A stretch of 24,118 nucleotides of DNA from a virus, in IMG/VR virus record IMGVR_UViG_3300006754_005399, positions 1-24,118 of that record; one strand, written 5' to 3'. The stretch's first letter is position 1; each line of letters starts with the position of its first letter. The position numbers were made by a program, and so were the translations under genes. A model generated the notes under the pieces. That model ran no database searches, was not told the origin of the DNA, and worked only from the letters and a program-made list of their open reading frames with translations. Of this stretch, positions 2,105-21,728 are shown piece after piece.

Positions 2105-5100
2105 TTATTGCTCCTCCTCGGTTTGGATCTAACACTGCTACTGTAGATGGCACGCTACCTGTGATGGAACTAACAGACGTACTATATACATTGTCCCATC
2201 CAACTAGATGCGACTTAGTATATGCCGGTACAATCTCGTCAAGATGCTCTTTTATTATGTTTTCTACATCGCTCTTTAACTTGCTGTCCGTTAGGGTAGT
2301 GTTCCTAATATTAACATTAAACATCTCGCTCTTTCTGCCAGGGATTCTATGCTTAAATACTCTCTCAATAGTATCAATATACCCGCGCTTACCAATTGGG
2401 ATATCCCATTTCATTGCCCCTGTATCTGTATGCGCAGTATACAATGATTTGATATCGAAGTAATCTAAAGCAGTATCGTATAACGAGATGTTTTTCATAC
2501 TAATACCGTTAAGCAGATAATGTTGAGGTTGATCTAAATGCTCAGATAAAAGTAGCTTAGTATAAAATGGTGATGTACCGACAGTTAACGGTTGGTCGAA
2601 TATATCTGAATAACTAAATCTACCTTGAGGTACACTCTTACTATCGACATGTATAGTATTGATATAAAAATCTAACTGACCGCGTTCGGAGTCAAACACA
2701 ACGCAGAAATTGTGCCAGCCGCTTTTTAATGCAGATATTGGATGTGATAAAGTAAACGCTGAATATGTTGATGTAGTTGTACTCGGATTATAGATAGTTG
2801 AAAGACCGAGTTTTACTTTAATATATTCGCCTCTATCATTTATAGTTTTACGAGCGTAGTCGAATCCAGTTGTTGTTTTCCATCCTGATAGCGGCGTTAA
2901 TATATGCTTAATTGTCGAGTCTTCGAGCTTTGTACCGCTAAGGATACTTGTGTAGCTAATCACGTCGCCACTCAGCGACAGTTTTACAAATTTTGCTCCA
3001 GATACGGACTGATTCGTTGTAATACAATATGTCTGATAATCTCCATTGCTATCAAACTCGCACATGAAGTCGATAAATCTATTATACAGGGTTCCTGTGA
3101 GACATGAAAGCGTTGTAGTGAATGTCTCGGCTCTGTTATTGTTTAATTTACTTACCTTGTTATTGCTATGTAACACCCATATATTGTTATCTTTATCACA
3201 ACCTATACCTTCAATAATATTAGCTGAACTAACTCCAAGTATATTAGCTGATATTGTATTATCATATGTATATACTTTATTATTTTGTAGCGACCATGGG
3301 CTGCCATTATTATCTACCATACTACCGTTACCGAAAATTATAGATCCTGATGTGGGATGTACATTAGAACTACCAGCGCCACTATGCGCATCGCTCATTG
3401 TAACAAGTACTCCTGTTGATGCAGATAGACCCTTACTTACAGAGTGTATATTAGCGGCTGTCAAATGAGAAGCTCCTGTCCCGAAATTCCAGACATTTGC
3501 ATTGGCTAATGTACCAATATATCCTGAGCTTCTATTACCGAGATTATATTTGAAATATTGTGCTGTATCACTATTAGGCTTTACTAGGATGTAAAGGTAA
3601 TCTTCACTTATCTCGAGATCTATCAGCATTTTACCGCTTAAATGGCTGCTACTTATTTTGTTTTGTATTGTACCGTTAATCGTATATTCATATATGTCGT
3701 TGTTATCGTCAACTATCCAGTAATTATCGCTCGAGCTTCTCTTACTAAATAGTCTGATCTGTTTATTGATATAATGTGTATGTAAATAAACAAAATCGCT
3801 ATTATATATGTGTACCTTATTTTCATCTGGTATAGCAATAAATGGTGTTACAGTGTCGTAATTAAATATACCAAAACCGTTGGTAATGTAATTGCCAATT
3901 ATTTGGTCACCTATAGGCTTGGTCCAATTAATATTATGCATCCAGAAATTAAGAGTAAATGAGCCTGTATGCTTAACAGAATTCATTGTACCGAAATTGT
4001 CAGCATTAAATGTATATACAGGCGGCGCGTCTACCGAAATGTTTACTAATTTGTAGTCTTTATATAAGTTTAGATTTTCAGCAATTAATGAATGCTTGAT
4101 CGAATTAATAACTTTTTGACTATTCTTTTTACCGACATGATGATACGCGTAGAGTATTCCTGGTTCGAACGTCAAATCACTCATCTTATCATAGATGGTT
4201 ATATGTTCAGCTGACGCGCCAAGTTTTCGTGTCAAGCTTTCATCCTTGTCTATATATACAATATTCTCAATAGCGCCTGACGTCAATGCAGATGTTCTTG
4301 TGTGGAAGCTTGAGTTAAAAAATCTATCTACCCAAATCGGTCCGGTTCTTTGAAGCGGAGAATTCGGTGCGCCAGAAAGCCACGAGCACAGCCACGTACC
4401 GTTCAGCTCTTCCGCGTTAGGTACGAGAACATTTTGTATACTGTTTTGCGATGTATCTAGCTTCTTAAATACCTTGTCTGATTTTATAGGCACGTTACCT
4501 GCAATTGCTCCAGACTTCAATAACGTAGTATCATTAATATTAATTCGGTTATATGGAGACATAACTTGCGGCATATGAAAATATGTTAGCTTGTCTGCTG
4601 GTATAAGTATTTCCTTTATATTCGCGTCATAACTAAGATGCATAGAATCATTGCCATATTCTTCGTATGTACCAGTATGGAGTTTAGTGTATGAGCGATG
4701 AGAAATTTCCGGCTGCGGGCCCGTATATGGATTATTTCTACTAACTCCGCCTTCAGGGGTAACTTGATTTTTGAGAGGTATAAATTCGGTAGCTATTTGA
4801 TGCGAGCTATAGCTAATATTATTAGTAGTAGACGTGACAACGTAATTGTTTTCAATATTTTGGTGCGAATTAGACGTAGATACATCAGTTGTGGTATCGT
4901 CGACAGCGCTTACATATGAATTCCAAGTTGTCTGTAGATTAAAGACTGTACCGGTATTGAGATCTCTATATTCAAACCTGTTACCAGAATTATACATACT
5001 TAGCGATCCTGGTACTGGTATGGCTGAAAGACCAGGCGTTCCATCGGCATCCGTTTCGTTTTGATGGTTTTGAATGAGCAATGCGATAGAAGTATGCTGC

Positions 5101-5675
5101 TCAGTTGACAAATTTTGGAGCAATGTTATTGTTTTATTAGTTTCATCTAACACATAATTAAATATCTGTCTATCATGTACCGCGTCGCTCCCGCTACTTC
5201 TAGAAGTAAACGTCATTGCAGAGCTGTTGCCTGGATTTACCGTTAGATATTTCAGTGCATTATCATATGGGTGACGTACTGTACAATAAACCGGGTTAAT
5301 AAACTCAATTTCGCAAAAATATCTATCGTCCATGTTAGCTGAAACGCCCGTAACAGCTACAGTTCCGAGATTGCCATTGATGACAACGAAATGATCATTA
5401 TCCTTAACTTTGAGATATGTGAGCATATAATTCGGATACGACGTCTTCGTCGTCTCCATTTTCATAATATGATTTGTTGTTTTTGCTTCTGTTAAAAATA
5501 ATGGATTATAATTATTATATGTAACGTCCTCGATCGCAGATAGAGCATTGATTGTAAATATACCTAAACCTTCTGACGTATATACTCTCATATCAGATAC
5601 GTCAATATCATCGTCAAGCTTATATGTTGCGCTTAACGGTCTAATGTTTTTTGGATGGTATTTTACCGGGTTCAT
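2094..5675 (-). CDS. Large virion protein with LamG/concanavalin-like domain interrupted by a propeller-like region (1193 aa)
   Basis: Probable tail-fibre or baseplate adhesin. The first strands of a LamG/ConA-like jelly roll are visible at residues about 565-605 (GSFTLNFWMHNINW then GDQIIGNY...GFGIFNYD). The usual second half appears only at about 945-1080 (GWHNFCVVFDSERGQLDFYIN, then the closing NGISMKNISLYDTAL). Between them lie about 320 residues with propeller-like strands such as IEGIGCDKDNNIWVLHSN. This layout suggests a domain inserted into a LamG fold, which in other proteins binds glycans or surface ligands. Residues 1-550 are beta-rich with no recognised family. The tail (about 1095-1160), with RIPGRKSEMFNVNIRN and a helix ending EIVPAYTK, may be an attachment region. 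The start lies 3 bases after the stop of the 996-aa gene with no clear Shine-Dalgarno, and the end overlaps the next gene by 11 bases. The LamG call is good; the ligand is unknown. Confidence 0.75.
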   Translation of the reverse strand: MNPVKYHPKNIRPLSATYKLDDDIDVSDMRVYTSEGLGIFTINALSAIEDVTYNNYNPLFLTEAKTTNHIMKMETTKTSYPNYMLTYLKVKDNDHFVVINGNLGTVAVTGVSANMDDRYFCEIEFINPVYCTVRHPYDNALKYLTVNPGNSSAMTFTSRSSGSDAVHDRQIFNYVLDETNKTITLLQNLSTEQHTSIALLIQNHQNETDADGTPGLSAIPVPGSLSMYNSGNRFEYRDLNTGTVFNLQTTWNSYVSAVDDTTTDVSTSNSHQNIENNYVVTSTTNNISYSSHQIATEFIPLKNQVTPEGGVSRNNPYTGPQPEISHRSYTKLHTGTYEEYGNDSMHLSYDANIKEILIPADKLTYFHMPQVMSPYNRININDTTLLKSGAIAGNVPIKSDKVFKKLDTSQNSIQNVLVPNAEELNGTWLCSWLSGAPNSPLQRTGPIWVDRFFNSSFHTRTSALTSGAIENIVYIDKDESLTRKLGASAEHITIYDKMSDLTFEPGILYAYHHVGKKNSQKVINSIKHSLIAENLNLYKDYKLVNISVDAPPVYTFNADNFGTMNSVKHTGSFTLNFWMHNINWTKPIGDQIIGNYITNGFGIFNYDTVTPFIAIPDENKVHIYNSDFVYLHTHYINKQIRLFSKRSSSDNYWIVDDNNDIYEYTINGTIQNKISSSHLSGKMLIDLEISEDYLYILVKPNSDTAQYFKYNLGNRSSGYIGTLANANVWNFGTGASHLTAANIHSVSKGLSASTGVLVTMSDAHSGAGSSNVHPTSGSIIFGNGSMVDNNGSPWSLQNNKVYTYDNTISANILGVSSANIIEGIGCDKDNNIWVLHSNNKVSKLNNNRAETFTTTLSCLTGTLYNRFIDFMCEFDSNGDYQTYCITTNQSVSGAKFVKLSLSGDVISYTSILSGTKLEDSTIKHILTPLSGWKTTTGFDYARKTINDRGEYIKVKLGLSTIYNPSTTTSTYSAFTLSHPISALKSGWHNFCVVFDSERGQLDFYINTIHVDSKSVPQGRFSYSDIFDQPLTVGTSPFYTKLLLSEHLDQPQHYLLNGISMKNISLYDTALDYFDIKSLYTAHTDTGAMKWDIPIGKRGYIDTIERVFKHRIPGRKSEMFNVNIRNTTLTDSKLKSDVENIIKEHLDEIVPAYTKSHLVGWDNVYSTSVSSITGSVPSTVAVLDPNRGGAINGY
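2111..2119 (-). promoter_or_regulatory. Strong Shine-Dalgarno for the 569-aa gene
   Basis: Reads GAGGAGGAG on the minus strand, six bases before the ATG at 2104 and inside the 3' end of the upstream coding sequence. It is the clearest ribosome-binding site in the window, and contrasts with the transcription-unit heads, which have none. Confidence 0.75.
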
Positions 5676-5678
5676 ATA

Positions 5679-8669
5679 TTAATCATGTATTACCTGCGCG
5701 TAAGCTGAATTTTGAGTTGTAATAGTATACATCGCTACATCAAACGTTACAACAATGTCGTTGCCTATACCAGATAACCCACTGTTATTTAACAAATAAC
5801 CGGTATTATGTGTATATGGTAAAATAGCCGTGTCAGCCTCTTCGACCGATCCTGCGCCTTGTGCATCTGTTTTTGACGCACTAAGACCTGAACCAAGACG
5901 TACGGTTAATTTATCTGTGTCAATTACTCCAGGAGACGCTGCATGTCTCCCTGAAGCGGTTGTACCGAATGATAGAGGATAAACGACAGATTCATCATCT
6001 CCGAATACTACTTGTGACTGAACGCCTTCAAGCGATATTGGACGCGTTTCTGATCCGCCTCTATTAACATTTGACTGTATATTACCGGACAATAACATAC
6101 CGTTGCTTCTTAATACTGTCTGGTAATTACCGATGTTATGATTGAACACAGCTCTATTCGGAGTAAACACATCCAGTTGTTTCTTAGTTAGGGCTTTTCG
6201 GTCAGTAGTATCATAATACCAGTTGTGCAATATTGGGGCATCGCTCGGTTCATAACCGAAAAAGTTAATGGTGTAAGTATTTTCTAATGTACTTAAAGCA
6301 CCGAAAGGTCGATCTATACGTGTAATATTAAAGCTATCACCAGTCACAGACGTGATGATAGAGTAAGGGGATGTTACAACATATCCTTCATTATACAGAA
6401 GGTTGTATGAGTCTTGATCTAGTTCAACAGTTCCCGACGATCCGGGAGCAAGTGTATTAATTGAATATACTTCCCGGAAGTCGTTATCATTAATATTGTA
6501 TGAATATATTGTCGGGTATATTAATTTGCTGTTAGAGGCAGACAGAAACGGATGCAATGATGTCTTAAAGAAATAGATATTTTCCGTTCTTTCATCATAC
6601 CACGGGTTACCGAACCTGCTGAAATTGCTATCATCTCCTGATATAGACACCATAACGCGTAGAGGTAGAATAGACTCAAAACTATTGTTAGTTAGATCAT
6701 ATTCAAACTTCTCAACAACAAAAAAGTTTTTAGTTTCAACTAAAATGACATTTCCAATGATATCAAACGCTTTGATGTTATTGTTTAATTCAGTTTTTAT
6801 ATCCTCATCCTTCTCGTACTTGATGAATATAGCGCTCAGCGCGCTGGACGTGGGAGATATCTCAGAGGAATATACATTTCTAAAATAAAAGTCAGCTGTC
6901 TCTAAATTATATCTATCATACACTGATAATACTGCTGATAATGGTGATGTTTTTTGCTCATACTTCGTTGTATTATTGGAGAGCTGGTATTGAAAATATG
7001 GATGCTTGGGATCGCTAAACTCACCCGTCAATGATATATGAGACGTATCACCAGTATTTTGTACAGCAGTATTTGTATATGTTCCTGCAGTCTGATTAGT
7101 AGTCAGTTCAACAGGACGAGTTTGCTTGAACAGAGCAAACTCGTTACCGTATATATCAGTCTTCCACTGATATAAACTATCCTCTCTAATTAGTAAATCA
7201 GATTGCTTCTCTTCTACAGGATATGGTCGCAGAGACTTCTTAACATATATATCTGATTTAGACCATATATCCTTTTCGTCACCTTCCCAAAAATCTATGT
7301 CATCATGCCATCTACTAATACCTGTACTTTGCAATTGCAGTGACTCTTCAACAGACTGATACGGGTAAAACTTTTGTATATGTCTGTCATTTACAATATC
7401 ACCATATTGTGTTTGAGATTCCTTGCCGGATCTAATACGCGTATTGTCGTCTGTATGGATGAGTACTGACGGTACATCTAATAATGAATTACCACGACCA
7501 GTCCCATATTCGTCAGGATCAGGAAAAACATATATTGTATTCGCCTCTAGGGCGGTCGGGTCGAGCTTATAATCAGATTCAATCCTCTCAAAGTTTATTA
7601 CACCTTCTTTGTCGGGTGTAAAGAACTTACCAATATCTTTGAGAGTTACCAAATTTGATTTGCTTGGTATAGTAGCATGCCCAGAATTATATCTGTTTAG
7701 ATAGTTCAGGTTAGGTGTTTTAGGTTCGAACAGAACGCCAGATACGAACTGTGTATTTGTTAAATTGGTACTCAAGTAGTACATCGTTGTGCCAGCGTAT
7801 TTTTCGACAAGCTTGCCTTGATATACTATGTTTAACGTGTCTTTACTTGGTAGCTGATTAACAAACTCACTGTCCGGGAGCTGTGTTATATCTGTTCTCG
7901 GGATATTAATCCCAATAATACTCTGATCAGCTGATTTGCCGTAAATACAGTCGTTGCCATCTTCAGTTACTGTAAGCAGTAATGGAATTTGACTTAACAA
8001 TTCTTGTATAGCATAATCAAGATCTAGCCAGATATTAGGATCGATATTTTCGGTGTTACTTTTCGACTCAGTAAATAGAACATTATCCGCGCTTAACGTA
8101 TAAATGGCCGCGGAAATAGTTGAATTAGTATCAAAATAATGACTATATTCGTCATATAAGGATTCTATCTCAATATAGATATTATCTATAACAGAACTAA
8201 CTGCTGGTATATTTGATACCGGGTATTTGTCAACAAAATCTTCATCATTTAATAAATTAGTAATAGTATCTTTTACTGACTTAGCAACTCCCCGTTCTGA
8301 ACCTTTCAGATAATGTACATGCTTTACATTTCGTAGATCCTGCCGTACGTCGATGATGTATTTTGATATTTGATTTAAGCGAGTAACGAAGAAAGGTATT
8401 ATAGTATCGAGTTCTTGCCTGTCATTGAAGTTTATTTTTGATAGAAAGCGCTGCTCTTCTGCTGTCGTATAATTGATAGTTATTTCTTTTAGTAGGTCAA
8501 CATATAACTCTCTTCTATAACTATTGAAATCAGAGCTAGATTTTTTCTTAGTATTATACCAAGATACCAGATATTCGTTGTATTTAGCAAAAAGGTCAGA
8601 TTCCGATACCAGCGAACTATCAATAGTACGAATCCATTCTAAATACGGTAACGGTTTAAGCTCTGCCAT
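5679..8669 (-). CDS. Large virion/baseplate-associated protein, family not recognised (996 aa)
   Basis: No family was recognised. Residues 1-240 are mostly helical (EWIRTIDSSLVSESDLFAKY; IIPFFVTRLNQISKYI) with a LKGSERG turn near 121-127. The rest is beta-rich with many Ser, Thr, Asn and Asp residues, typical of virion proteins. Around residues 610-720 there are propeller-like strand pairs (GNVILVETKNFFVVEKF; NPWYDERTENIYFFKTS). No transmembrane segment or signal peptide is seen. Downstream of gp6, T4 encodes gp7, a wedge protein of about 1030 aa. This gene is one position further on and of similar length, so a gp7-like wedge role is a positional guess only. It begins a new unit: a 34-base gap precedes it with GATAAATA ending 6 bases before the ATG at 8669, and no Shine-Dalgarno. 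A structural role is likely; the exact one is open. Confidence 0.65.
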   Translation of the reverse strand: MAELKPLPYLEWIRTIDSSLVSESDLFAKYNEYLVSWYNTKKKSSSDFNSYRRELYVDLLKEITINYTTAEEQRFLSKINFNDRQELDTIIPFFVTRLNQISKYIIDVRQDLRNVKHVHYLKGSERGVAKSVKDTITNLLNDEDFVDKYPVSNIPAVSSVIDNIYIEIESLYDEYSHYFDTNSTISAAIYTLSADNVLFTESKSNTENIDPNIWLDLDYAIQELLSQIPLLLTVTEDGNDCIYGKSADQSIIGINIPRTDITQLPDSEFVNQLPSKDTLNIVYQGKLVEKYAGTTMYYLSTNLTNTQFVSGVLFEPKTPNLNYLNRYNSGHATIPSKSNLVTLKDIGKFFTPDKEGVINFERIESDYKLDPTALEANTIYVFPDPDEYGTGRGNSLLDVPSVLIHTDDNTRIRSGKESQTQYGDIVNDRHIQKFYPYQSVEESLQLQSTGISRWHDDIDFWEGDEKDIWSKSDIYVKKSLRPYPVEEKQSDLLIREDSLYQWKTDIYGNEFALFKQTRPVELTTNQTAGTYTNTAVQNTGDTSHISLTGEFSDPKHPYFQYQLSNNTTKYEQKTSPLSAVLSVYDRYNLETADFYFRNVYSSEISPTSSALSAIFIKYEKDEDIKTELNNNIKAFDIIGNVILVETKNFFVVEKFEYDLTNNSFESILPLRVMVSISGDDSNFSRFGNPWYDERTENIYFFKTSLHPFLSASNSKLIYPTIYSYNINDNDFREVYSINTLAPGSSGTVELDQDSYNLLYNEGYVVTSPYSIITSVTGDSFNITRIDRPFGALSTLENTYTINFFGYEPSDAPILHNWYYDTTDRKALTKKQLDVFTPNRAVFNHNIGNYQTVLRSNGMLLSGNIQSNVNRGGSETRPISLEGVQSQVVFGDDESVVYPLSFGTTASGRHAASPGVIDTDKLTVRLGSGLSASKTDAQGAGSVEEADTAILPYTHNTGYLLNNSGLSGIGNDIVVTFDVAMYTITTQNSAYAQVIHD

Positions 8670-8703: not shown

Positions 8704-11700
8704 CTACAGTATACCACGATTGTCACCGGAAATAGTAGTGTTGAATAGCCCAAGCCCGTCTCTAAGTTCATAATCTATCATACTTTCTACAATACCGTTA
8801 GAAGTACTCCAGTTTTCTAAGCCGCTTTGTGATTCGACTAAATTGGTATAAGAATTAGTCCAATCTATAATCCCTTCCGATAATACGTTCGAATAGTATT
8901 CAATGTGATCGTAGACGGCGAAGTAGGTCTTAAATGTTTCATTTGTAACGGTTTCTCCTAATCCCCAGCCCCACGCTAAATTATATGAACTAAGCGGATA
9001 TGATGACAGCATCCCGACAGATTTTACATAATTAGGGTTAGTTTCGTAATTCAACACATCTCTATCCGATATTACAACATCTTTAATATACATTTCGTCA
9101 TATAGGCCTACAGTACTTCCCCCTGCCCAATTAAATGTATCAGGAACATCTGCAGTATCGCTGTTCGCCATCCAAAATTCTATCCAAGTACTCCATGTAT
9201 CGGGATCTCTCTCTATCGCTGTAAATTCATGAGAGAATTCATACCATTCATCAAGCGGAGGATGAATAATAGTAAAATCTCCATCAGGCACGTTGTTACC
9301 ATATTTGAATCCGAAGCCTCTGATGTTTTTGCCGCCGGAAGGTATATAAATTTTTGCTGTAATTATATAATTTTTCCCTGCAACCACACTGTTATACCGG
9401 ACTACTTTATGGTAAGCTATCGCCGTATCAGCTCTACTATATACAGCCATCGGATAATTCAAATCCGCATTCGTTTGAAGTATAGAAAGACTGGCTCCAG
9501 AAAATCCGTCCGTATTATCTAGATCCGTTAATATAATGTCTCTAATTCCATAGTTATCGTCAGTTGACGCTGAAAATGCATCTGTAGGAGGGCCCACGCC
9601 GTCAGTCGGACCATAAGGGACAAAAGTAAGATACTCAGAATTAGCAACAAAATCAGCGTCAAACTCTACCCAAGTCTCTAAGTCCATGTCAATGAAATTA
9701 CTATAATCGATATGAAACCGTCGGCCTTCATATGAAGAAGCCGAGCCAGCGTATATAATCATCCCGCTATACGTAGGTATTTCTGTTATTGAAATATTTC
9801 CAAGTCGGAGAAGATCATAGCCCTCAGCTGGTTGTGCACCGGTAAATACATACGGTGTACCGTTGTTGTTTGTCGAGGCTAACTGATATATTAATAGCCT
9901 GTTATGCGTCGAGGTATTAAATTCGAAATCATACCACTGCCCCGGAGTAAGAGTCTTCGACCACAACACATCTGCACCCGGATAACCTTGAATAGAAACT
10001 CCATCACAAGACGAATTACTGGGTGGTATATAAACCCTGCCCTTGATGCTATAGGATTTACCGATATCCATACCAGGAAATGTTTGGTGTATATAATGAG
10101 AATCTTCGTTAAAACCGGCTACCATCTGTATAGCATTAGGGTCACCCATATAATCCCAATAAACCCGCTCATTTGTCCATCCGTGGTCGCCATGAGACGA
10201 TGCTATCCCCCAATCTGATTCATAAATCGTGGCCAATTGGGTTACAGCAATATTTTTAAGAGAAAATTTATCTTTTGTGGGGTTTGCTGGAAATTCTGTA
10301 CCCGCTCCATCTGCTCCGTCTTGATGCATATAGAAACTAATATAGTCAGTTTTTGCTACGAATTCCGCCGAAAAGGAATGCCAAGCGTCTTTCGCTAAAT
10401 TGTCTGCCGTTCCGCAGAAGTCCCCGATGTGATAATCAACTCCGTCATAAAAACGAATATTATCTATCGCGCCTAATTCTGTTACTACAAGATTCTTAAC
10501 ATCAAACATCATCGATTGGTTGGTCGTGGGATATTCCCAAAGTGTTCCCTTTAGTGCATAAAAGCGTAACTCGTCGTGTTCCCTGTTCGTAAATTCAACA
10601 GAAAAGCTTTCCCAGCCATTCAGCGTGGTTGTACTGACTCCAACCTCAACACCATCCCGAAGCATAAGTTTAACCTCAGTTATAGGAGTAGCTCCGGGAT
10701 TTATATAAATATCTCCAGTTATTTTATATCTTTTATATGGAGTTAATAGGGTGTCGTGATGTAAGAAGTGATAAGCAGAACTGATGTTGCTCCCGAATCG
10801 AAGAGTATTTAATTCACCACCCGCTGTGTTCGGAGATGAAGCATTTCCCCCAGTCGCAGTCCATCCCTGTGAATCAGAACTAAAATCTGAAGTATAAGTA
10901 TTGGTACCAACTTCTGTTACTACAATATCTTTAATTCCAAAATCTTCTTCACCCGAATCTATTTTGAAGGTGAAATCGCCCGCAGCTTCTTTTGCCCAGA
11001 AATATAGAGTAGTTCCAACGGCTGTAAATTCTTCATTGAAACTAACCCATTCTCCCTTGGTGGTAATATTTAATATGTCGCCGCCCGGAGTCGTGGAATT
11101 ATCATTATCAATTCCAACAACATTTGCTTTAACATTATCTTGTTCAATATATACTTTTCCTGTGATTTTATATCTTTTTCCTACAGTTAATGAAAGGTTT
11201 TTTTCGATATAGTGATTGCTATTCAAAAGTTGGCCACCGTTGGTTGTATTAAAGAAAGCTCTAAGGACATTCGGTTCACTTGCGTAGGTCGCTCGTCGAT
11301 CTAGATCTCCATCTCTAGCCGTCCATCCATCTTCATCAGAACTAAAATCTGAAGTATAAGTATTGGTACCAGCGGTCGGGATATATCCCTCGCCAGTAAT
11401 TTTATATGTTTTACCTACGGTTAGCGTCGAGTCTCTCCTCGCATAGTGGACCGACTTCGCGGAGTCGGCGACTTTACCTACTAAAGTATCAGTGCTAGTA
11501 TCTCTATATATATCCATAGCAGACTCTTCTACCCAACCGTCTAATGGATCTGAATAGGTTCCTGCATAACCATGACCTTCAGTAAAGGATGAAGCATATA
11601 CAATTTTGGGATGAGTAGGATCAGCAATATAGAACTTACCTTTTACGTTATAGTTCTTTCCTATTGTAAGGCATCGATTATACAGGCTGTGGCTAGCTGC

Positions 11701-14700
11701 ATCAGAGCTTCCATTTTCTACAAGCACATATGTTTTACCACCATAATTTTCTATCCTTGTTGCTGTGCCATTAGATGCTCCCCAACCATTTGTATCAGTA
11801 CTAAAATCTGAAATATAACTGACGGTGTCGCTGAAATCCGAATTATAGATTTCAGCCGGTTCGCCTGCAGATACATACATAGGCATTACTTTTTTATATT
11901 CATTATTATAAAACTGTCTAATAACTATAGGTTCACCAGCTGTAATAATCCCAGTTGTAGTGTCGATTTGATCGCCAAGATTTTTACCGTATAACCCACT
12001 ACTGCTACCATAATTATGGAAATCTCTATCAAACTTACTTCTCGATCCCCAAGCTTTCTTGTGTGGTATTGAAACAAAATCCATTACTCGGCCGAGGCCT
12101 CCTGGATACCCGTAATTGTAATTCTTTGGCTGAAAATCATGCTGATCACAGATTGAATAAAGAGCATCTATATTACAAGTATCAGCGTCAGCAACATTAT
12201 CTGTAAAGTTAGCTATTTTTTCATATATTACTCTTCCGAGAGCGGTTGGCTTTGAACTTATACTACCAACTATTGAGCCGTAAAAATCGTCAAAGAATCT
12301 CTTACCCTTATTAATTGTTATCGGTTGCGTTCTATAACTCTTTATTGTTTCTATAGGATCAAAATCTTCATTAATCTTCGCAAATGCATATTTACCAGCG
12401 GAGGGAGATATCGTAAGTGAGAGGTCGCCTTCAATAGTCGAAGTACCAAATTTGTTGGTATATTTGTTCAGCCAATTATATCCTGTCCAGTCGCCTCGAG
12501 TAATATGGTGACCAAAAATTCGTTCAGGTCGTATAGAAATAGATGACGTAGCTAATGTGGTAGATATTGTAAATGCTGAAGATGCAGTTGGTGTCTGTGT
12601 TGGTATATTATATAATTTGCTCTCAAATGAATTTATTACTAGTAAATTATCATATGGATCAAAACTCATACCTCCTAAGTGATGAGTATCGGCACTCATC
12701 GTATAATTATATACCGTTCCTGCAGACGCATATACATTGGTAAACGTTGTATCGAGCACGTTAATATTTGCTTCGATGTCACCTGCCGTTGTTACTTTCG
12801 TAACTGTATTAGTGTCGTGCCCGACCCAAGCATTTTGATATTTGTCGAGTACAATAAATTGTGGATCGCGGAATCCGCTAACTTTGACTGACCACGTTCC
12901 AGTCGGTAAAATTTTATATACCCAGTCAGCGTAAATTGCTGAATCTATATTTGCTTCATGAAGCACGGTGCTAGATACGTTGTTAATCTTACCCTCATAC
13001 GGCTTAACAGTAACAACATTGTCTGTTACACTCTTGACGAGAAATTTGCCGTTGAAGAAGTCGTCTGTGAACCCGCTAACATATAATACATAGTTGCTAG
13101 CGATATTATTTACACCTGTATAGTATTCGTATTTAATTGTATCGTCGCTCATCGCGCGCGCTGAAATCGTCTGTATATCCTGTCTGATCCAGCTAAGCTC
13201 TGGTTGCTGATTAGATGTCGTTACCCACAGATTGCCTTGATTATCAGCGACTCCATCTACAGGCACTATACCTTTAGGTTCAAATACGTACTGTATATTA
13301 GCATAATTGCCTATAGGTACAGACATATTAAACGGAATAGCTCGGTTACCTAGTATAACTTGACCACTAGCAGGATGACTACAAGCTATCCAGTACTGTA
13401 AACCTTTACCGGATTCAATAAAAGCAGGAGCTAGCGAATCTTTACCGTCTATGACTTCATTTTCTGCAAGAATAGCTACATCTTGCGCTTCGCCAATTGT
13501 TCTAGATATCAGACCTGCGCCGTTGATGTCAGCGTACATACCGAACACGCCTGCAGATAATGTAATCCATGCATTTCTACTTGAGTCAAACGACACCCTT
13601 GTAGGTGTAATTTCTGACGAGGATTGTCCGACTGAATAATCTCGAATAATACTATTCGTAGTTAGCGGAACGGACTTGTTAATCTTATCTGTTATATATG
13701 GAAGATATATCGATGATGGAGAATCTGTATATGTATTTACAGCAGATAACGAATTACTTACTATACCTCCCCAAATATTTAATACCTTGTTATCTGAGTA
13801 TCTATCCGTCTCATAAATAGCTGATGAGCAAAATGGTGAACCAAACGTTGGTGTATCGGTTTTGACAAATTCTATTTTTCGATCGTGCATGATACCGCCG
13901 ACAGTATCACTATATCTATACACATCTTTAATAAACATAGTATTGACTTCACTCGTCGTCGGATTGCCTATAGATCCGGTAAATACGTCTTTATTAAATG
14001 TTGGTTTCTCAGGCAGCTCTACTTTACCTTGCAGTTTGCATGTATCTGTCGACTCGTACGGAATGAAATACCCTCTAAATTTGCCATCCAAGTGTACAGG
14101 TAACTGGTCATCTCTCACTCTATAGAAGTTAGTTGATATAAGTGCTGTTGATGTGTTCCATATATCACTACTACTGACCACAGACAAATTAGTAACATAT
14201 GTATGCATGTTCTCACTGACTCCAGGTACTGCCTGTTGACCAGAGAGTGGTGCATAGCTTTGCGTAAATATACCATTCTCGTCAACTAGATCTACAAAGA
14301 ACGGTACTTCAGTACATTGCCACTTATTCGAGGCTAGCGTCATTGTTCTAATACCAGAGCTAGTAAATGTGAGTTTGGATGCATGTCGATGTCTAATGCG
14401 CGCTGGTATTATACGGCTAAAATTACCGTATATTGACGGTAGCTTGACATCACCTCTTATATCGGATTCAATAACACCATCAACAATCTGCCTATAGTCT
14501 GAATGATTTGATAAATCTATCGCTGTAAATATTAAAACAGGATCTAGTCCGTGCTTTGGTGTGTCGTCACCATACACAAATTCAGTGCTACCGGAAACGC
14601 CAACAAATACTGCTGCAGTGGATTCTACATCAACAGCAGATAAAGGTACTCGCCTATAAAATTGAGCTCCAAACTTTTGACCTGATTCATAGTATATTGG

Positions 14701-15339
14701 CTCAACGGTTAGGCTCACACTGTTAACAGGACTATATATGATCGATCCGTTGTCGGCTGTTAATGTCTTATAGAATGACCAGGTATTGTCCAAATGCTGC
14801 CATTTGTCACTACTTGAGAGAGGTAATTTTTTTGAATCGGTACCGCTAACATATAAACTAATTGTATAACCGCTTGCAGATAATTGTTGATACGTATGTG
14901 TTGATCCAAATATGTTGAGATTTATCGGATTATCTTTTGAGCTCTCAAAGCCTGACGGTAAATTCTTTATTGCTAATGCATCGTCGGTGACAAGATCTAT
15001 TTGATCAATAATAAAATCAGTTACTGAAAGCCGTTTTGTTTCTGTGCTAAGATATTCATTACCGGCTGAATCGTACGCTACTAATGATACTATATAATGG
15101 CCGGGATATTTATATACATGGTCAGCTGATGATGATTTGTATGTTGTACCGTCTCCAAAATCCCAAACAAATAACTCATTCGACAAATAATTAAATGGCT
15201 CGGCAGCTGTATCAGCAATAAATTGAAATTGTGTCAGCTTGTTTGTGAATCCAGAAAGAGTGTTAGCTGCACCGTTATCGCCGGTACTAACACCACCGTA
15301 TACAGTAAACGGTATCTTAATTTTATTTGCAAATGCCAT
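8704..15339 (-). CDS. Giant virion adhesin: PKD domain, propeller-like region and carbohydrate-binding-like module array (2211 aa)
   Basis: The longest gene in the window and a probable peripheral baseplate or fibre protein that contacts host glycans. An N-terminal PKD/Ig-like domain lies at residues about 35-105, with the hallmark WDFGDGT (59-65) and the strand YPGHYIVSLVAYDSAGN. Propeller-like strands follow at about 575-920 (VSFDSSRNAWITLS; VADNQGNLWVTTS; VLDKYQNAWVGHD; SFDPYDNLLVINS). Residues about 1165-2095 hold repeated modules like CBM4/9 (CenC-type) domains: YTSDFSSD..GWTA, then GK.YKITG..YI, then W.SF..EFTA, then F.IKDIVVTE. Complete modules and isolated halves are mixed. The last ~115 residues match nothing recognised. 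The ATG lies 2 bases after the gp6-like stop, preceded by a weak GCGAG. Glycan binding is inferred from the module type; no catalytic motif was seen, so a depolymerase role is unsupported. Confidence 0.8.
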   Translation of the reverse strand: MAFANKIKIPFTVYGGVSTGDNGAANTLSGFTNKLTQFQFIADTAAEPFNYLSNELFVWDFGDGTTYKSSSADHVYKYPGHYIVSLVAYDSAGNEYLSTETKRLSVTDFIIDQIDLVTDDALAIKNLPSGFESSKDNPINLNIFGSTHTYQQLSASGYTISLYVSGTDSKKLPLSSSDKWQHLDNTWSFYKTLTADNGSIIYSPVNSVSLTVEPIYYESGQKFGAQFYRRVPLSAVDVESTAAVFVGVSGSTEFVYGDDTPKHGLDPVLIFTAIDLSNHSDYRQIVDGVIESDIRGDVKLPSIYGNFSRIIPARIRHRHASKLTFTSSGIRTMTLASNKWQCTEVPFFVDLVDENGIFTQSYAPLSGQQAVPGVSENMHTYVTNLSVVSSSDIWNTSTALISTNFYRVRDDQLPVHLDGKFRGYFIPYESTDTCKLQGKVELPEKPTFNKDVFTGSIGNPTTSEVNTMFIKDVYRYSDTVGGIMHDRKIEFVKTDTPTFGSPFCSSAIYETDRYSDNKVLNIWGGIVSNSLSAVNTYTDSPSSIYLPYITDKINKSVPLTTNSIIRDYSVGQSSSEITPTRVSFDSSRNAWITLSAGVFGMYADINGAGLISRTIGEAQDVAILAENEVIDGKDSLAPAFIESGKGLQYWIACSHPASGQVILGNRAIPFNMSVPIGNYANIQYVFEPKGIVPVDGVADNQGNLWVTTSNQQPELSWIRQDIQTISARAMSDDTIKYEYYTGVNNIASNYVLYVSGFTDDFFNGKFLVKSVTDNVVTVKPYEGKINNVSSTVLHEANIDSAIYADWVYKILPTGTWSVKVSGFRDPQFIVLDKYQNAWVGHDTNTVTKVTTAGDIEANINVLDTTFTNVYASAGTVYNYTMSADTHHLGGMSFDPYDNLLVINSFESKLYNIPTQTPTASSAFTISTTLATSSISIRPERIFGHHITRGDWTGYNWLNKYTNKFGTSTIEGDLSLTISPSAGKYAFAKINEDFDPIETIKSYRTQPITINKGKRFFDDFYGSIVGSISSKPTALGRVIYEKIANFTDNVADADTCNIDALYSICDQHDFQPKNYNYGYPGGLGRVMDFVSIPHKKAWGSRSKFDRDFHNYGSSSGLYGKNLGDQIDTTTGIITAGEPIVIRQFYNNEYKKVMPMYVSAGEPAEIYNSDFSDTVSYISDFSTDTNGWGASNGTATRIENYGGKTYVLVENGSSDAASHSLYNRCLTIGKNYNVKGKFYIADPTHPKIVYASSFTEGHGYAGTYSDPLDGWVEESAMDIYRDTSTDTLVGKVADSAKSVHYARRDSTLTVGKTYKITGEGYIPTAGTNTYTSDFSSDEDGWTARDGDLDRRATYASEPNVLRAFFNTTNGGQLLNSNHYIEKNLSLTVGKRYKITGKVYIEQDNVKANVVGIDNDNSTTPGGDILNITTKGEWVSFNEEFTAVGTTLYFWAKEAAGDFTFKIDSGEEDFGIKDIVVTEVGTNTYTSDFSSDSQGWTATGGNASSPNTAGGELNTLRFGSNISSAYHFLHHDTLLTPYKRYKITGDIYINPGATPITEVKLMLRDGVEVGVSTTTLNGWESFSVEFTNREHDELRFYALKGTLWEYPTTNQSMMFDVKNLVVTELGAIDNIRFYDGVDYHIGDFCGTADNLAKDAWHSFSAEFVAKTDYISFYMHQDGADGAGTEFPANPTKDKFSLKNIAVTQLATIYESDWGIASSHGDHGWTNERVYWDYMGDPNAIQMVAGFNEDSHYIHQTFPGMDIGKSYSIKGRVYIPPSNSSCDGVSIQGYPGADVLWSKTLTPGQWYDFEFNTSTHNRLLIYQLASTNNNGTPYVFTGAQPAEGYDLLRLGNISITEIPTYSGMIIYAGSASSYEGRRFHIDYSNFIDMDLETWVEFDADFVANSEYLTFVPYGPTDGVGPPTDAFSASTDDNYGIRDIILTDLDNTDGFSGASLSILQTNADLNYPMAVYSRADTAIAYHKVVRYNSVVAGKNYIITAKIYIPSGGKNIRGFGFKYGNNVPDGDFTIIHPPLDEWYEFSHEFTAIERDPDTWSTWIEFWMANSDTADVPDTFNWAGGSTVGLYDEMYIKDVVISDRDVLNYETNPNYVKSVGMLSSYPLSSYNLAWGWGLGETVTNETFKTYFAVYDHIEYYSNVLSEGIIDWTNSYTNLVESQSGLENWSTSNGIVESMIDYELRDGLGLFNTTISGDNRGIL
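10873..10909 (-). repeat. 37-bp perfect direct repeat, copy 2 (module boundary)
   Basis: Identical base for base to 11335-11371. It encodes the boundary peptide GTNTYTSDFSSD at the start of a full module. The distance between copies is 462 bases, exactly 154 codons, so exchange between them would remove or add one module in frame. Confidence 0.9.
11335..11371 (-). repeat. 37-bp perfect direct repeat, copy 1 (module boundary)
   Basis: Partner of 10873-10909. A third, diverged copy (about 3 mismatches over 26 bases) lies at 11794-11819, at the start of the first N-half module. Here the repeat joins a truncated N half ending GYIPTAGT directly to a new module start. Confidence 0.9.
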
Positions 15340-17791: not shown

Positions 17792-18343
17792 ATGAGTAAA
17801 TTTGACGTTATTGTAGAAGCTGCATTAGAAAGATTTCGTGGTACGAACTTTTTAGTTGGAGATCGTGTTAAACTTGTTGATAATTACCTGTCTCACGACT
17901 GGTTTAAGAAGCAGCCATCATTAAAGATTGAGCGAATCAAAGAAATGATTGATTCTGGTGATAATATCAGAGTAACTGCGGTAAAAGCTGATAGACCGGC
18001 TGTTGCCGATTCCGGCTCGTTTGAAGTTGTTGACGGGTTTTATGTTGATATTATGAGAGAAGCTGCTCCTGGGTTATTCTTACCAACTCAAGTATTTACA
18101 TTTCCGCAAGAATTGCTTGAGCATCAAGATGACGGTATTAACTTGGCAGGCCCTACACCCGATGGTCAAATTCGCAAAGACACCTCTAATATTAAGCCTG
18201 AAGAGCTTGAAGGTGATTCTGACGAGCTCAGAAAACTACAAACTCATGGTGATGGTGATGATCTAGTGAATCCAAAAGATAACACAAATATTGAAACGGT
18301 ACCTGCTGCAAAATCATATACTGCTAAATACATCGAGGGTTAA
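17792..18343 (+). CDS. Phage protein of unknown function (183 aa)
   Basis: The family was not recognised. Residues 1-60 read MSKFDVIVEAALERF, then FLVGDRVKLVDNYLSHDWFK and a helix around SLKIERIKEMIDSG. The GDRVKLVDN segment resembles a small barrel strand (KOW or SH3-like), but that is a loose visual match. The middle is beta-rich (FEVVDGFYVDIMREAAPG). From about residue 110 the chain is hydrophilic, acidic and probably disordered. It is one of only two genes on the plus strand, placed between the metabolic cassette and the gp25-gp6 unit. Its stop shares the palindrome TTAA with the stop of the opposing clamp-loader gene, so the two converge with a 4-base overlap. The TAAATA element upstream suggests late expression and hence perhaps a virion or assembly role. 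Confidence 0.75.
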   Translation: MSKFDVIVEAALERFRGTNFLVGDRVKLVDNYLSHDWFKKQPSLKIERIKEMIDSGDNIRVTAVKADRPAVADSGSFEVVDGFYVDIMREAAPGLFLPTQVFTFPQELLEHQDDGINLAGPTPDGQIRKDTSNIKPEELEGDSDELRKLQTHGDGDDLVNPKDNTNIETVPAAKSYTAKYIEG

Positions 18344-19266
18344 TTTTTAGTAATATCTGAAAGTTGAATTAAACAGCTATACGCGTTAATTTCTTGATCT
18401 ACTACAAACGCACTTCTATATAGCGCCTCAGCAACTGCAACTAATTGCATCTCTTTATGTTTGTTACTTGAAGTATCTATTTCGTTGAAAATCATTTTTA
18501 ATAATACAGGATAGTCTGAATTAAACTTCTCTTCATTTTCAATTATATATTTTCTAACTCTGAGAACATGACCGTTTGTAGTAAGAGTCAGTATTTGTTT
18601 AGCGAATTCTTCTCCTTTAACAGAACTCGAAATTACAATCTCTCCGTTCGCCGAGCAACATTTCTGAACTTCATTAATTATTTTTCTAAGATCAGGATAG
18701 TTGTTCTTAATAAATTTCGCGAGCTCATCTGTCTGATCTTTCGATATAGAAACCTCTTGCTGATCTAAAATATGCTGGATTCGAGTAATGCACTCTTCTA
18801 ACGGAGGTGTTAAATCTAAGCTCTGACACCTGCTCTGCAATGCGGGTATAATTCGATGACCGTAATTAGCAGTAAGAATAAATCTCGTAATTTCAGAATA
18901 CTCTTCCATTGTATTCCGTAAAGCTCTCTGCGCATCTTGACTTAGACCGTCGCACTCGTCTAGAATGATAACCTTAATACCACCATCTAAGCTCATAGTA
19001 CGGGCAAACTGAACGACTTTATTTCTTATTGTATCGATACCATTCTCGTCTGATGCATTGATATATAGATATTGAGACTTAAGAACGTCGTGAACGAGTA
19101 CCTTCGCTAGCGTAGTCTTTCCCACTCCAGGACTACCAACGAGTAGAAGATTTGGTATCTCTTCCTCTTTTTGAAACTTACCGACAATGGCTGCATTTTC
19201 TGAAGTTAATATAACATCAGCCAGTACCTTCGGCCTATATTTTTCTATCCAAAGATTATCAAACAT
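18340..19266 (-). CDS. Sliding-clamp loader subunit, gp44/RFC-small-subunit-like AAA+ ATPase (308 aa)
   Basis: Uses ATP to open and load the ring-shaped processivity clamp onto primer-template DNA for the phage polymerase. It opens MFDNLWIEKYRPKVLADVIL, the WxEKYRP...L.D box of RFC/gp44 proteins. It has Walker A GSPGVGKTT (44-52), Walker B VIILDECDGL (99-108), sensor 1 ILTANY (130-135) and the SRC arginine-finger motif in LQSRCQSL (143-150). Length matches T4 gp44 (319). The B motif is DECD rather than the DEAD or DEFD common in relatives. A longer frame runs back to an ATG at 19398, but it would overlap dUTPase. The start at 19266 is preferred because it gives the conserved N-terminus, follows GGAG by 6 bases and begins one base after the dUTPase stop. 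A gp62-like partner subunit is not seen in the window. It ends convergent with the 183-aa gene. Confidence 0.95.
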   Translation of the reverse strand: MFDNLWIEKYRPKVLADVILTSENAAIVGKFQKEEEIPNLLLVGSPGVGKTTLAKVLVHDVLKSQYLYINASDENGIDTIRNKVVQFARTMSLDGGIKVIILDECDGLSQDAQRALRNTMEEYSEITRFILTANYGHRIIPALQSRCQSLDLTPPLEECITRIQHILDQQEVSISKDQTDELAKFIKNNYPDLRKIINEVQKCCSANGEIVISSSVKGEEFAKQILTLTTNGHVLRVRKYIIENEEKFNSDYPVLLKMIFNEIDTSSNKHKEMQLVAVAEALYRSAFVVDQEINAYSCLIQLSDITKN

Positions 19267-19267
19267 A

Positions 19268-19777
19268 TTAATCTCCAGAACTCCCGAATCCTTTATCGCC
19301 TCGCTTCGACTCAACAACTTCATCAGCCCATTCACATTGTGGATGCAATAAAGGATAAACAACAAATTGCGCGATCTTATCACCCTTTTTGACTTCATGA
19401 TTAGCTAACGTCATATTTCGATAATTAGTTTTAAGGTTATATAATTTAACACCTAAATCACCACGATATCCGTTATCTATAACACCTAGATGAGGTTGGA
19501 TGCTGTGCTTAAATCCTAGACCAGATCGCGGCTCAATTCGAAACCAATATCCCGGTTGAATATATGCTAATGTCAAACCGACAGGTACGATAGCGCTGCT
19601 ACCGGCTTTAACAGTTACATCTTCAACAGCTACTAAATCGTAACCTGAATCACCGGTTCCAATGTCACTATTGTTTGCTCTAGGTAATTGTGCATCCGGA
19701 TGTGTCTTAACAAACTTAACGCTTGGATTGAGTATTAAATGTTGTCGTGTTATTAACGGGACTGAATCTTTTGACAT
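19268..19777 (-). CDS. dut: dUTP diphosphatase, trimeric type (169 aa)
   Basis: Hydrolyses dUTP to dUMP and diphosphate, keeping uracil out of phage DNA and supplying the thymidylate precursor. All five motifs of the homotrimeric family are present in order: I, GDSGYDLVA (42-50); II, EPRSGLGFK (82-90); III, GVIDNGYRG (98-106), with the catalytic Asp and the Tyr that stacks on uracil; IV, KGDKIAQFVV (131-140); V, KRGDKGFGSSG (158-168), the Gly-rich phosphate-binding tail. The enzyme therefore looks intact. An extra ~20 residues precede the usual start (VKFVKTHPDAQLPRAN); the ATG at 19777 is kept because AAGAAG lies just upstream. It sits between the 72-aa gene (60-base gap, no promoter recognised there) and the clamp loader (1-base gap), and is probably transcribed from the sigma70-like promoter at 20063-20090. 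Confidence 0.96.
   Translation of the reverse strand: MSKDSVPLITRQHLILNPSVKFVKTHPDAQLPRANNSDIGTGDSGYDLVAVEDVTVKAGSSAIVPVGLTLAYIQPGYWFRIEPRSGLGFKHSIQPHLGVIDNGYRGDLGVKLYNLKTNYRNMTLANHEVKKGDKIAQFVVYPLLHPQCEWADEVVESKRGDKGFGSSGD
19273..19276 (-). promoter_or_regulatory. Shine-Dalgarno deciding the clamp-loader start
   Basis: GGAG on the minus strand, 6 bases before the ATG at 19266 and inside the last codons of dUTPase. It supports the short start and translational coupling of the two genes. Confidence 0.65.
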
Positions 19778-20104: not shown

Positions 20105-20599
20105 ATGAGCAAGGACAATGATGAAATTAAGTCTTTAGTTGACCAATTAAAGGACAATACAATTGTTAATAATTCAATACAACAAACTTCGGAGGAATTC
20201 CGATTAGATAAAGATGATATAGAGGACTTTGTTGTTCAAAATTCAGGTAAGCTAATCAATGAAAGTCTTGATGTTATGAATAACGTAAAGGATTATATAA
20301 TGGCGTCCGGTGACCCGGATAGCATTAGCGCTTTATCTGAACTTATAAGAGCATCCAGCGGAGCTATCGAATCTCTTAATAAGATTGTGATTCAAAATAA
20401 GCGCTCAGCAACGTCGCTTGCTACAAAAAAAATGGATATAGATTCAAAGGTTGCTATTGAAGAAAAGAAGTCCGATGCCCTTATAGGTACAAGAGAGGAA
20501 ATGTTTAAGAAAATATTAGATCAAGCCAAGGTAGTCGATGTTAATGTAGCTGAACCTAATCTCGACCAAACTCCTGAACCTGACCCGCCTGCAAAATAG
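20105..20599 (+). CDS. Helical phage protein, possible terminase small subunit (164 aa)
   Basis: Mostly helical and strongly charged. Residues about 52-110 contain LINESLDVMNNVKDYIMASG, DPDSISALSELIRASSGAIE and SLNKIVIQNKRSATSL. This arrangement (a helix with a KDYI-like end, a short turn with Asp/Pro and Ser, then a helix containing the motif AL.ELI and SLNKI) recalls the central region of T4 gp16-type small terminase subunits, which select phage DNA for packaging. That is a pattern judgement from memory, not a search. The C-terminus is acidic and Pro-rich (EPNLDQTPEPDPPAK), probably disordered. It is one of two plus-strand genes, has a late-type element upstream, and its last 44 bases overlap the end of the opposing 390-aa gene. 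No large terminase gene is in the window. The coding call is firm; the function call is weak. Confidence 0.8.
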   Translation: MSKDNDEIKSLVDQLKDNTIVNNSIQQTSEEFRLDKDDIEDFVVQNSGKLINESLDVMNNVKDYIMASGDPDSISALSELIRASSGAIESLNKIVIQNKRSATSLATKKMDIDSKVAIEEKKSDALIGTREEMFKKILDQAKVVDVNVAEPNLDQTPEPDPPAK

Positions 20600-21728
20600 A
20601 GTTTGAGGTAACTAGCTTATTTAACGTCTGTATTTTATTGCGCATCACATCGACAGTAATCTTTGAGTTTTCAATAACAATATCAAATCTACCGTCCTTA
20701 ACCTTCTTTTTGTTTTGCGCTACTCGAGAGTATGATAAGATCTTATAAACAGCTCCAAGAGTATCTGATACAATATCGTCAATTATCGTAATAGATTGAG
20801 TCATACGCGTCCAGTGTAAATGATCGGTCATTAAATTATCTCCATGGGCCTGTGTAGGTGTTGACAGTGACTCCAGTGCTCTACTCATATGTATACGATA
20901 ATGTGTACTTACTTTCTTTGCAGCCTCCATCATATTTATTTTTGTTTGATCGTCAAGCTTATCTTGTATATTGGCCGGTATTGATGTCGGTATAACGCTG
21001 GCTCCACCAATTGTTTTTAATATAGTATGCGATATGTCCCAATACGGTATAACTGTATTATCTACTACTTCAAATATCCTACCGAGCGAACCTACGCTGT
21101 CGCTAAATTCTGTAAAATAATCAGCAACATCATCTGTTACTAAGCTCTTATATTCCTGCCTTACCTTATGATGAGCTTTTCTGAATCGGTCATGCCAATG
21201 AACAAGAAATTCATCATTCATGTTACCTGCACCAAACCGTGTCTTTAATTTTTCAATAGTATCAGTAACGTTCTGCGTCACATCACTATCGGGAATTTCT
21301 TTCCATTCTCTCAGTTCAGTAATAATATTATACGCGTGGAAATACGTTTTACCGCCTTCTACTTTTTTTGTAGGTAAATTATCTTTAGATCTAATCCAAA
21401 CTTCGTTTTTACTCAAGTATGAATTTATACCAATTAAGTCGTATTTTTTGTCGGATTGATTTGACGATACAACATTAGCTCCGACAGCACTTTCTTGAGC
21501 ATTAAATGTTCCATTGTTTATACTTTGAAAAAGTTTTGCCTGCTCAGTAATTGGATCGTTGAGATGTTTTGTCTCGCTCCACGCATAGTTTGCAGCAACA
21601 TAATCTCCATACTCATTAACAATCTTAATAAAATTAGAAGTAGCAATATGAAAATCGACTGAATTGGATATTTCGTAATCCGCTAATTCAGGTGCTCCAG
21701 TATTTATCGGTATTTGTATATCTGCCAT
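20556..21728 (-). CDS. Putative tail/baseplate protein, family not recognised (390 aa)
   Basis: No family was recognised. The protein appears mainly helical from about residue 140 onward (EKLKTRFG; FRKAHHKVRQEYKSLV; a long helical C-terminus with VMRNKIQTLNKL). The N-terminal part is mixed, and His and Trp residues are frequent in the middle (HWHDRFRKAHH; HLHWTRM). There is no signal peptide, membrane segment or catalytic motif. Its ATG overlaps the last base of the 526-aa stop (TAATG), so translation is probably coupled and the two products may act in one complex, for example at the baseplate hub. The 3' end runs 44 bases into the plus-strand 164-aa gene. A structural or assembly role is inferred only from its neighbours. 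Confidence 0.7.
   Translation of the reverse strand: MADIQIPINTGAPELADYEISNSVDFHIATSNFIKIVNEYGDYVAANYAWSETKHLNDPITEQAKLFQSINNGTFNAQESAVGANVVSSNQSDKKYDLIGINSYLSKNEVWIRSKDNLPTKKVEGGKTYFHAYNIITELREWKEIPDSDVTQNVTDTIEKLKTRFGAGNMNDEFLVHWHDRFRKAHHKVRQEYKSLVTDDVADYFTEFSDSVGSLGRIFEVVDNTVIPYWDISHTILKTIGGASVIPTSIPANIQDKLDDQTKINMMEAAKKVSTHYRIHMSRALESLSTPTQAHGDNLMTDHLHWTRMTQSITIIDDIVSDTLGAVYKILSYSRVAQNKKKVKDGRFDIVIENSKITVDVMRNKIQTLNKLVTSNSILQAGQVQEFGRD

Follow-up and report, generated by a model that had tools for sequence, protein, structure and literature searches.

The question raised by this locus is how a phage protein could come to carry, besides complete domains, apparent halves of the same domain with no counterpart. 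The window, i.e. the whole stretch of DNA analysed (24,118 nucleotides, IMG/VR virus record IMGVR_UViG_3300006754_005399), contains a long ORF, here called the host ORF, in which a first-pass annotation had recognized carbohydrate-binding-like modules in the order stub, N, N, NC, NC, C, NC, C, NC, where N and C are the two halves of a module. In that reading, the C half was missing from two N halves, and the N half from two C halves. The features are listed below; "model" refers to positions in the module profile, and residue r of the host ORF corresponds to (15339-pos)/3+1.

8704..15339 (-), host ORF, 2211 aa, with a PKD domain near the N-terminus and the array at residues ~1162-2098
9046..11856 (-), whole nested array, residues 1162-2098, absent from the ortholog in contig L012
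11827..11856 (-), first part of M1 ('stub'), AEIYNSDFSD, strand 1 of the outermost module, model 2-12
11608..11826 (-), N part of M2 (N1), model 4-73; best relatives L016a, L034 and L040
11368..11604 (-), N part of M3 (N2), model 3-77; best relative L024 (z 20.7)
10906..11367 (-), M4 (NC3), whole, inside M3; AlphaFold model; 62% identity to the L007 module
10471..10905 (-), M5 (NC4), whole, inside M3 in tandem with M4; full profile match
10231..10470 (-), C part of M3 (C5), model 78-150; best relative L024 (z 36.1)
9772..10230 (-), M6 (NC6), whole, inside M2 after M3, the most diverged; full profile match
9517..9771 (-), C part of M2 (C7), model 77-152; best relatives L040, L016a and L034
9046..9516 (-), second part of M1 (NC8 without strand 1), model 12-149; placed in the tree with L002 (100/99)
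11335..11370 (-), copy 1 of a 36-base perfect direct repeat, GGTACCAATACTTATACTTCAGATTTTAGTTCTGAT, at the start of M4
10873..10908 (-), copy 2 of the same repeat, at the start of M5

The gene adjoining the host ORF upstream is a T4-type baseplate wedge gene (phrog_219, 5.2e-46), whose product shows 23-29% identity to phage baseplate wedge proteins, including those of cyanophages; the window is therefore assigned to a divergent T4-like phage. Three other large ORFs, of 569, 1193 and 996 aa (395-2104, 2094-5675 and 5679-8669), are kept in the same order in L012 and have no PHROG or accepted Pfam matches, apart from a weak NHL-repeat match of the 569-aa ORF. At 18340-19777 the longest ORFs of the clamp loader and the dUTPase overlap; the true start of the clamp loader probably lies further downstream, because its family match begins at residue 42. 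Two ORFs of 390 and 526 aa (20556-21728 and 21728-23308), with no PHROG match, are flanked by replication genes on one side and a baseplate wedge gene on the other.

The array was searched with a profile built solely from modules of other phages, none of them from the window. Eight stretches of the host ORF were matched, each with an E-value of about 1e-11 or better, and the piece order originally proposed was borne out. Full-model matches were obtained for NC3 (residues 1326-1479), NC4 (1480-1623) and NC6 (1703-1854), and partial ones, over the model positions listed above, for N1 (1174-1240, E 4e-17), N2 (1246-1326, E 1.6e-13), C5 (1625-1702, E 1.1e-13), C7 (1856-1942, E 1.4e-11) and NC8 (1942-2092). 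The pieces are related to each other, as the annotation had assumed: they score 31 to 129 bits, against a top score of 3.5 bits across 100 shuffles of the array. N and C parts are equal in number, and their summed lengths (158 aa for N1 plus C7, 159 aa for N2 plus C5) agree with the claim that one N and one C make up a full module, contiguous modules being 145-154 aa long.

At first sight, piece order and lengths also fit a true mosaic of half domains, in which recombination at an internal seam removed C halves here and N halves there, leaving halves that fold alone or pair loosely; two of the three breaks do fall at one seam. When the pieces are read at sequence level as opening and closing brackets, the series is balanced and resolves into six whole modules, M1( M2( M3( M4 M5 ) M6 ) ). 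M1, running from the stub to NC8, holds M2 (N1 to C7); M2 holds M3 (N2 to C5) and M6; M3 holds M4 and M5. The inserted part is thus itself interrupted: M2 within M1, M3 within M2, M4 and M5 within M3.

Model positions are complementary in all three split modules (N1 4-73 with C7 77-152, N2 3-77 with C5 78-150, stub 2-12 with NC8 12-149). From these coordinates it follows that NC8, previously taken for a full module, lacks the first strand (about 11 model positions), and that the stub is that missing strand. Placed side by side, IYNSDFSD and NTDGFSGASLS, from stub and NC8, match LYTSDFSSDVDGWTGGSLS in the L002 module with no gap at the join, and the alignment of stub plus NC8 with this module runs end to end.

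The pairing of the halves was analyzed by scoring each of them, against shuffles, on 19 reference modules. The three best scores of N1 were obtained with L016a (29.2), L034 (20.3) and L040 (19.3), and the same trio out of 19 was selected by C7 (L040 28.3, L016a 25.0, L034 21.3). N2 and C5 both pointed to L024, with scores of 20.7 (next 13.2) and 36.1 (next 10.2). L002, L016a and L024 are unbroken counterparts of M1, M2 and M3, respectively. In the unbroken modules of L024 and L016a the subfamily signature crosses the join, as GEGYI...IRFYDGVDY..GDF in the former and GKFYI...Y.GM.IY.GS.SSYEG in the latter. After joining, the alignments of M1, M2 and M3 to their unbroken relatives extend over the full or nearly full length, at 51%, 42-44% and 53% identity. 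Scores of the general profile do not discriminate between nested and crossed pairing; the preference for nesting comes from the subfamily relationships alone.

With independent deletions, the nearest intact relatives of the halves would not fall into nested pairs, the stub would not coincide with the very strand that NC8 lacks, and N and C parts would not balance exactly, which makes the half-domain mosaic highly unlikely. We conclude with high confidence that the array arose by nested (recursive) insertion of six CBM-like jelly-roll modules that are each complete and belong to one family. The halves described as unpaired each have a partner, as identified by the unbroken homologues. Breaks had been placed always at the same point, after the GK.Y.I.G..YI strand; this holds for M2 and M3, while M1 is interrupted at a second place, after strand 1. 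Repeated recombination at a recurrent internal seam is likewise retained from the earlier reading, with whole modules being inserted into modules rather than halves being shuffled at the seam.

M4 was modelled with AlphaFold from 16 sequences. The model is a confident all-beta sandwich (pLDDT 88.7), in which both seams fall in loops (residues 8-16 and 75-83). Its best match among solved structures is the CBM22 of 2wys (Z 14.2, 133 residues, rmsd 3.0), followed by CBM29, CBM4 and CBM16; the predicted module fold is a CBM22/CBM4-type beta-sandwich jelly roll. Sequence profiles matched solved structures only weakly. The profile check against PF02018 (CBM_4_9), suggested at the outset, gave a divided answer: 5 of 16 modules were matched (best 2.1e-7), and relatives in L004 (30.6 bits) and L016 (27.7 bits) exceed the family cut-off of 25.9, while no Pfam family, PF02018 included, is matched by those of the window itself. 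The latter are therefore regarded as distant relatives and not filed as CBM_4_9 members. Together with the predicted fold, the relatives above the cut-off uphold the original description of the modules as carbohydrate-binding-like. The predicted fold likens them to the jelly rolls of CBM_4_9, CBM22, CBM4 and CBM29; domains in the solved CBMs of these families are usually formed by one uninterrupted stretch of chain.

According to the proposed mechanism, a module would have entered a protein of the phage tail or baseplate region at one loop, and modules would then have repeatedly entered one another at two loops, after strand 1 and after the GK.Y.I.G..YI strand. The receiving loop would be left undisturbed, because an inserted jelly roll is expected to have its two ends close to each other. 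The apparent orphan halves would be the two ends of interrupted modules, and should pair across the insert in the folded protein. The suggestion that halves pair across the array thus went in the right direction, and that of halves folding alone is replaced by partners split by whole modules lodged in a loop. This pairing is deduced from sequence, because the model of M3 with its inserts (N2-NC3-NC4-C5) failed for N2 and much of C5, where pLDDT was under 50-60 and hardly any aligned sequences were available; nearly all rows had been put on NC3 by the aligner, making the model uninformative on pairing.

A relative with an empty site was found in L012, 72-74% identical on both flanks, in which the ortholog is 1269 aa long and the whole array is absent. 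Positions 9003-11861 of the window have no counterpart there, while the flanking DNA is about 73% identical; the ortholog reads KKVMPMYVSGGASEPGYVSSLQMLSTYP, and the window reads KKVMPMYVSAGEP-[array]-NPNYVKSVGMLSSYP. The missing block starts at the stub and stops with NC8, which are the limits predicted by the nesting. The empty site is too diverged to reveal a target-site duplication. Searching with the first 1146 aa of the two orthologs returned L012 alone and no intermediate array states. Fold, gene neighbourhood and absence from a relative suggest a likely role for the array as an optional adhesion device of the tail or baseplate, whose modules would bind host-surface glycans.

Modules of this family have short identical DNA ends in common, and the module in which contig L035 breaks off agrees with L040 in all of its first 101 bases; both facts would suit an assembly artefact, in which contigs of several phages were falsely joined at their modules. 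Such false joins would not produce complementary halves in nested order, and a single open frame of 2211 codons runs through all of the joins. Furthermore, the C-side order (part of M5, C5, M6, C7, M1) is found separately in L001 at 99.9% identity, the N-side, from stub to M4, being covered by one assembly. An artefact is considered extremely improbable.

The origin of the modules was analyzed by a maximum-likelihood tree of 22 modules, in which the six from the window occupy at least five separate places. M1 groups with L002 (100/99), M3 with L024 (100/97), M4 with L007 (100/99) and M2 with L016a, L034 and L040 (99/96). This scatter indicates that most modules were captured separately, not copied in place, apparently from a pool common to other phages. 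The alternative, duplication of one founder within the gene by unequal crossing-over, with halves as by-products of misaligned crossings, draws on M4 and M5: they begin with the same perfect 36 bases and are near relatives of each other, M4 being the best match of M5. These two alone may represent a local pair. Duplication is contradicted by the tree places for at least four of the six modules, M4/M5 aside, and M1, M2, M3 and M4 are closest, with strong support, to modules of other phages; as an account of the array it has next to no likelihood.

Outside the window, intact modules occupy loops in other phage proteins, several of which are encoded near tail genes. One receiving family, with one loop that acts as a 'socket', is found in L016 (3545-6265), L007 (5275-7131), L011 (5275-7083), L024, L034 and L040. 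In L016 three modules fill three loops of one protein, and in L007 and L011 the second loop alone is filled; this loop holds different modules in L007, L011, L016, L024 and L034, and within the family L016 alone has the other two occupied. The kinds represented by M2, M3 and M4 are present at the 'socket' loop (in L034, L024 and L007, respectively). In L018 (1127-4519) and L022 (2858-4852), modules of the same family lie beside Laminin-G-type lectin domains in phage proteins. Neither the modules nor the receiving proteins were matched in the phage isolates searched, and the bacterial and archaeal genomes searched gave no module relative.

The module ends are also conserved as DNA. For residues common between phages, the rate at which the same codon is used was 0.68 at the module start, against 0.45 expected, and 0.59 at the module end, against 0.42; an equally conserved middle motif gave 0.54, against 0.51. 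The expectation was computed per amino acid, and the comparison excluded modules whose detection relied solely on the DNA word. Among 129 sliding windows, the top 12 all fall at the two module ends. Mismatches to the common ends number 0 and 0 of 18 (5') and 0 and 2 (3') in M4 and M5, and 1-7 (5') and 4-5 (3') in the other window modules; such well-kept ends fit M4 and M5 being the latest arrivals. The identical stretch in L035 (1-101) and L040 (1609-1709) begins four bases before the TAT of the module; the two contigs come from one metagenome, their other genes are 66-71% identical, and the stretch looks like a recent module exchange.

These observations suggest that modules are exchanged by homologous recombination in their conserved ends, and recombination at such ends would be the means by which they spread. 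The modules encode no recombinase of their own, and inverted repeats were not seen by eye at their ends. A scan with the 17-mer of the 3' end returned 34 stretches, 6 of which encode a module, all in phages already in this set; the 3' word alone is weak evidence, because it is common by chance in viral contigs. The further idea that the modules are mobile in-frame DNA cassettes, moving among loops of phage structural genes, those of their own family included, so that nesting records successive insertions with the innermost latest, is offered tentatively and seems rather doubtful.

Six levels of nested insertion have been described in a 2026 survey of the SI3 region of the cyanobacterial RNA polymerase beta' subunit (rpoC2) (PMC13114784). 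Both cases involve domains within domains over several levels. SI3, whose domains are largely of the hybrid-motif type, is an elaboration of a cellular, cyanobacterial RNA polymerase, whereas the protein described here is a phage tail protein with CBM-like jelly rolls, for which an empty-site relative, an unbroken relative of each split module, separate capture and DNA-conserved ends are available. Phage proteins exchange domains continuously, prominently in tail proteins (PMC10684548). The present array shares with that work the exchange of domains between phage proteins; that account, in which the word 'nested' is absent, describes domains common to proteins, whereas here modules insert into their own family. 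Nested insertion and domain exchange in tail proteins are thus already known, and nesting of a family within itself in a phage protein appears unreported, no account of it having been found in the limited set of literature searched.

Same-family insertion over several levels, accompanied by an empty site, unbroken relatives and donor phages, makes observable a process that is usually ancient. In phage tail proteins, what look like 'orphan half domains' can be nested domains that have been misread, and the array is a natural experiment on the folding of a jelly roll whose chain is broken up by several hundred residues. Should exchange prove to be driven by the conserved DNA ends, the adhesion parts of phage tails would possess a unit of mobility the size of one domain.
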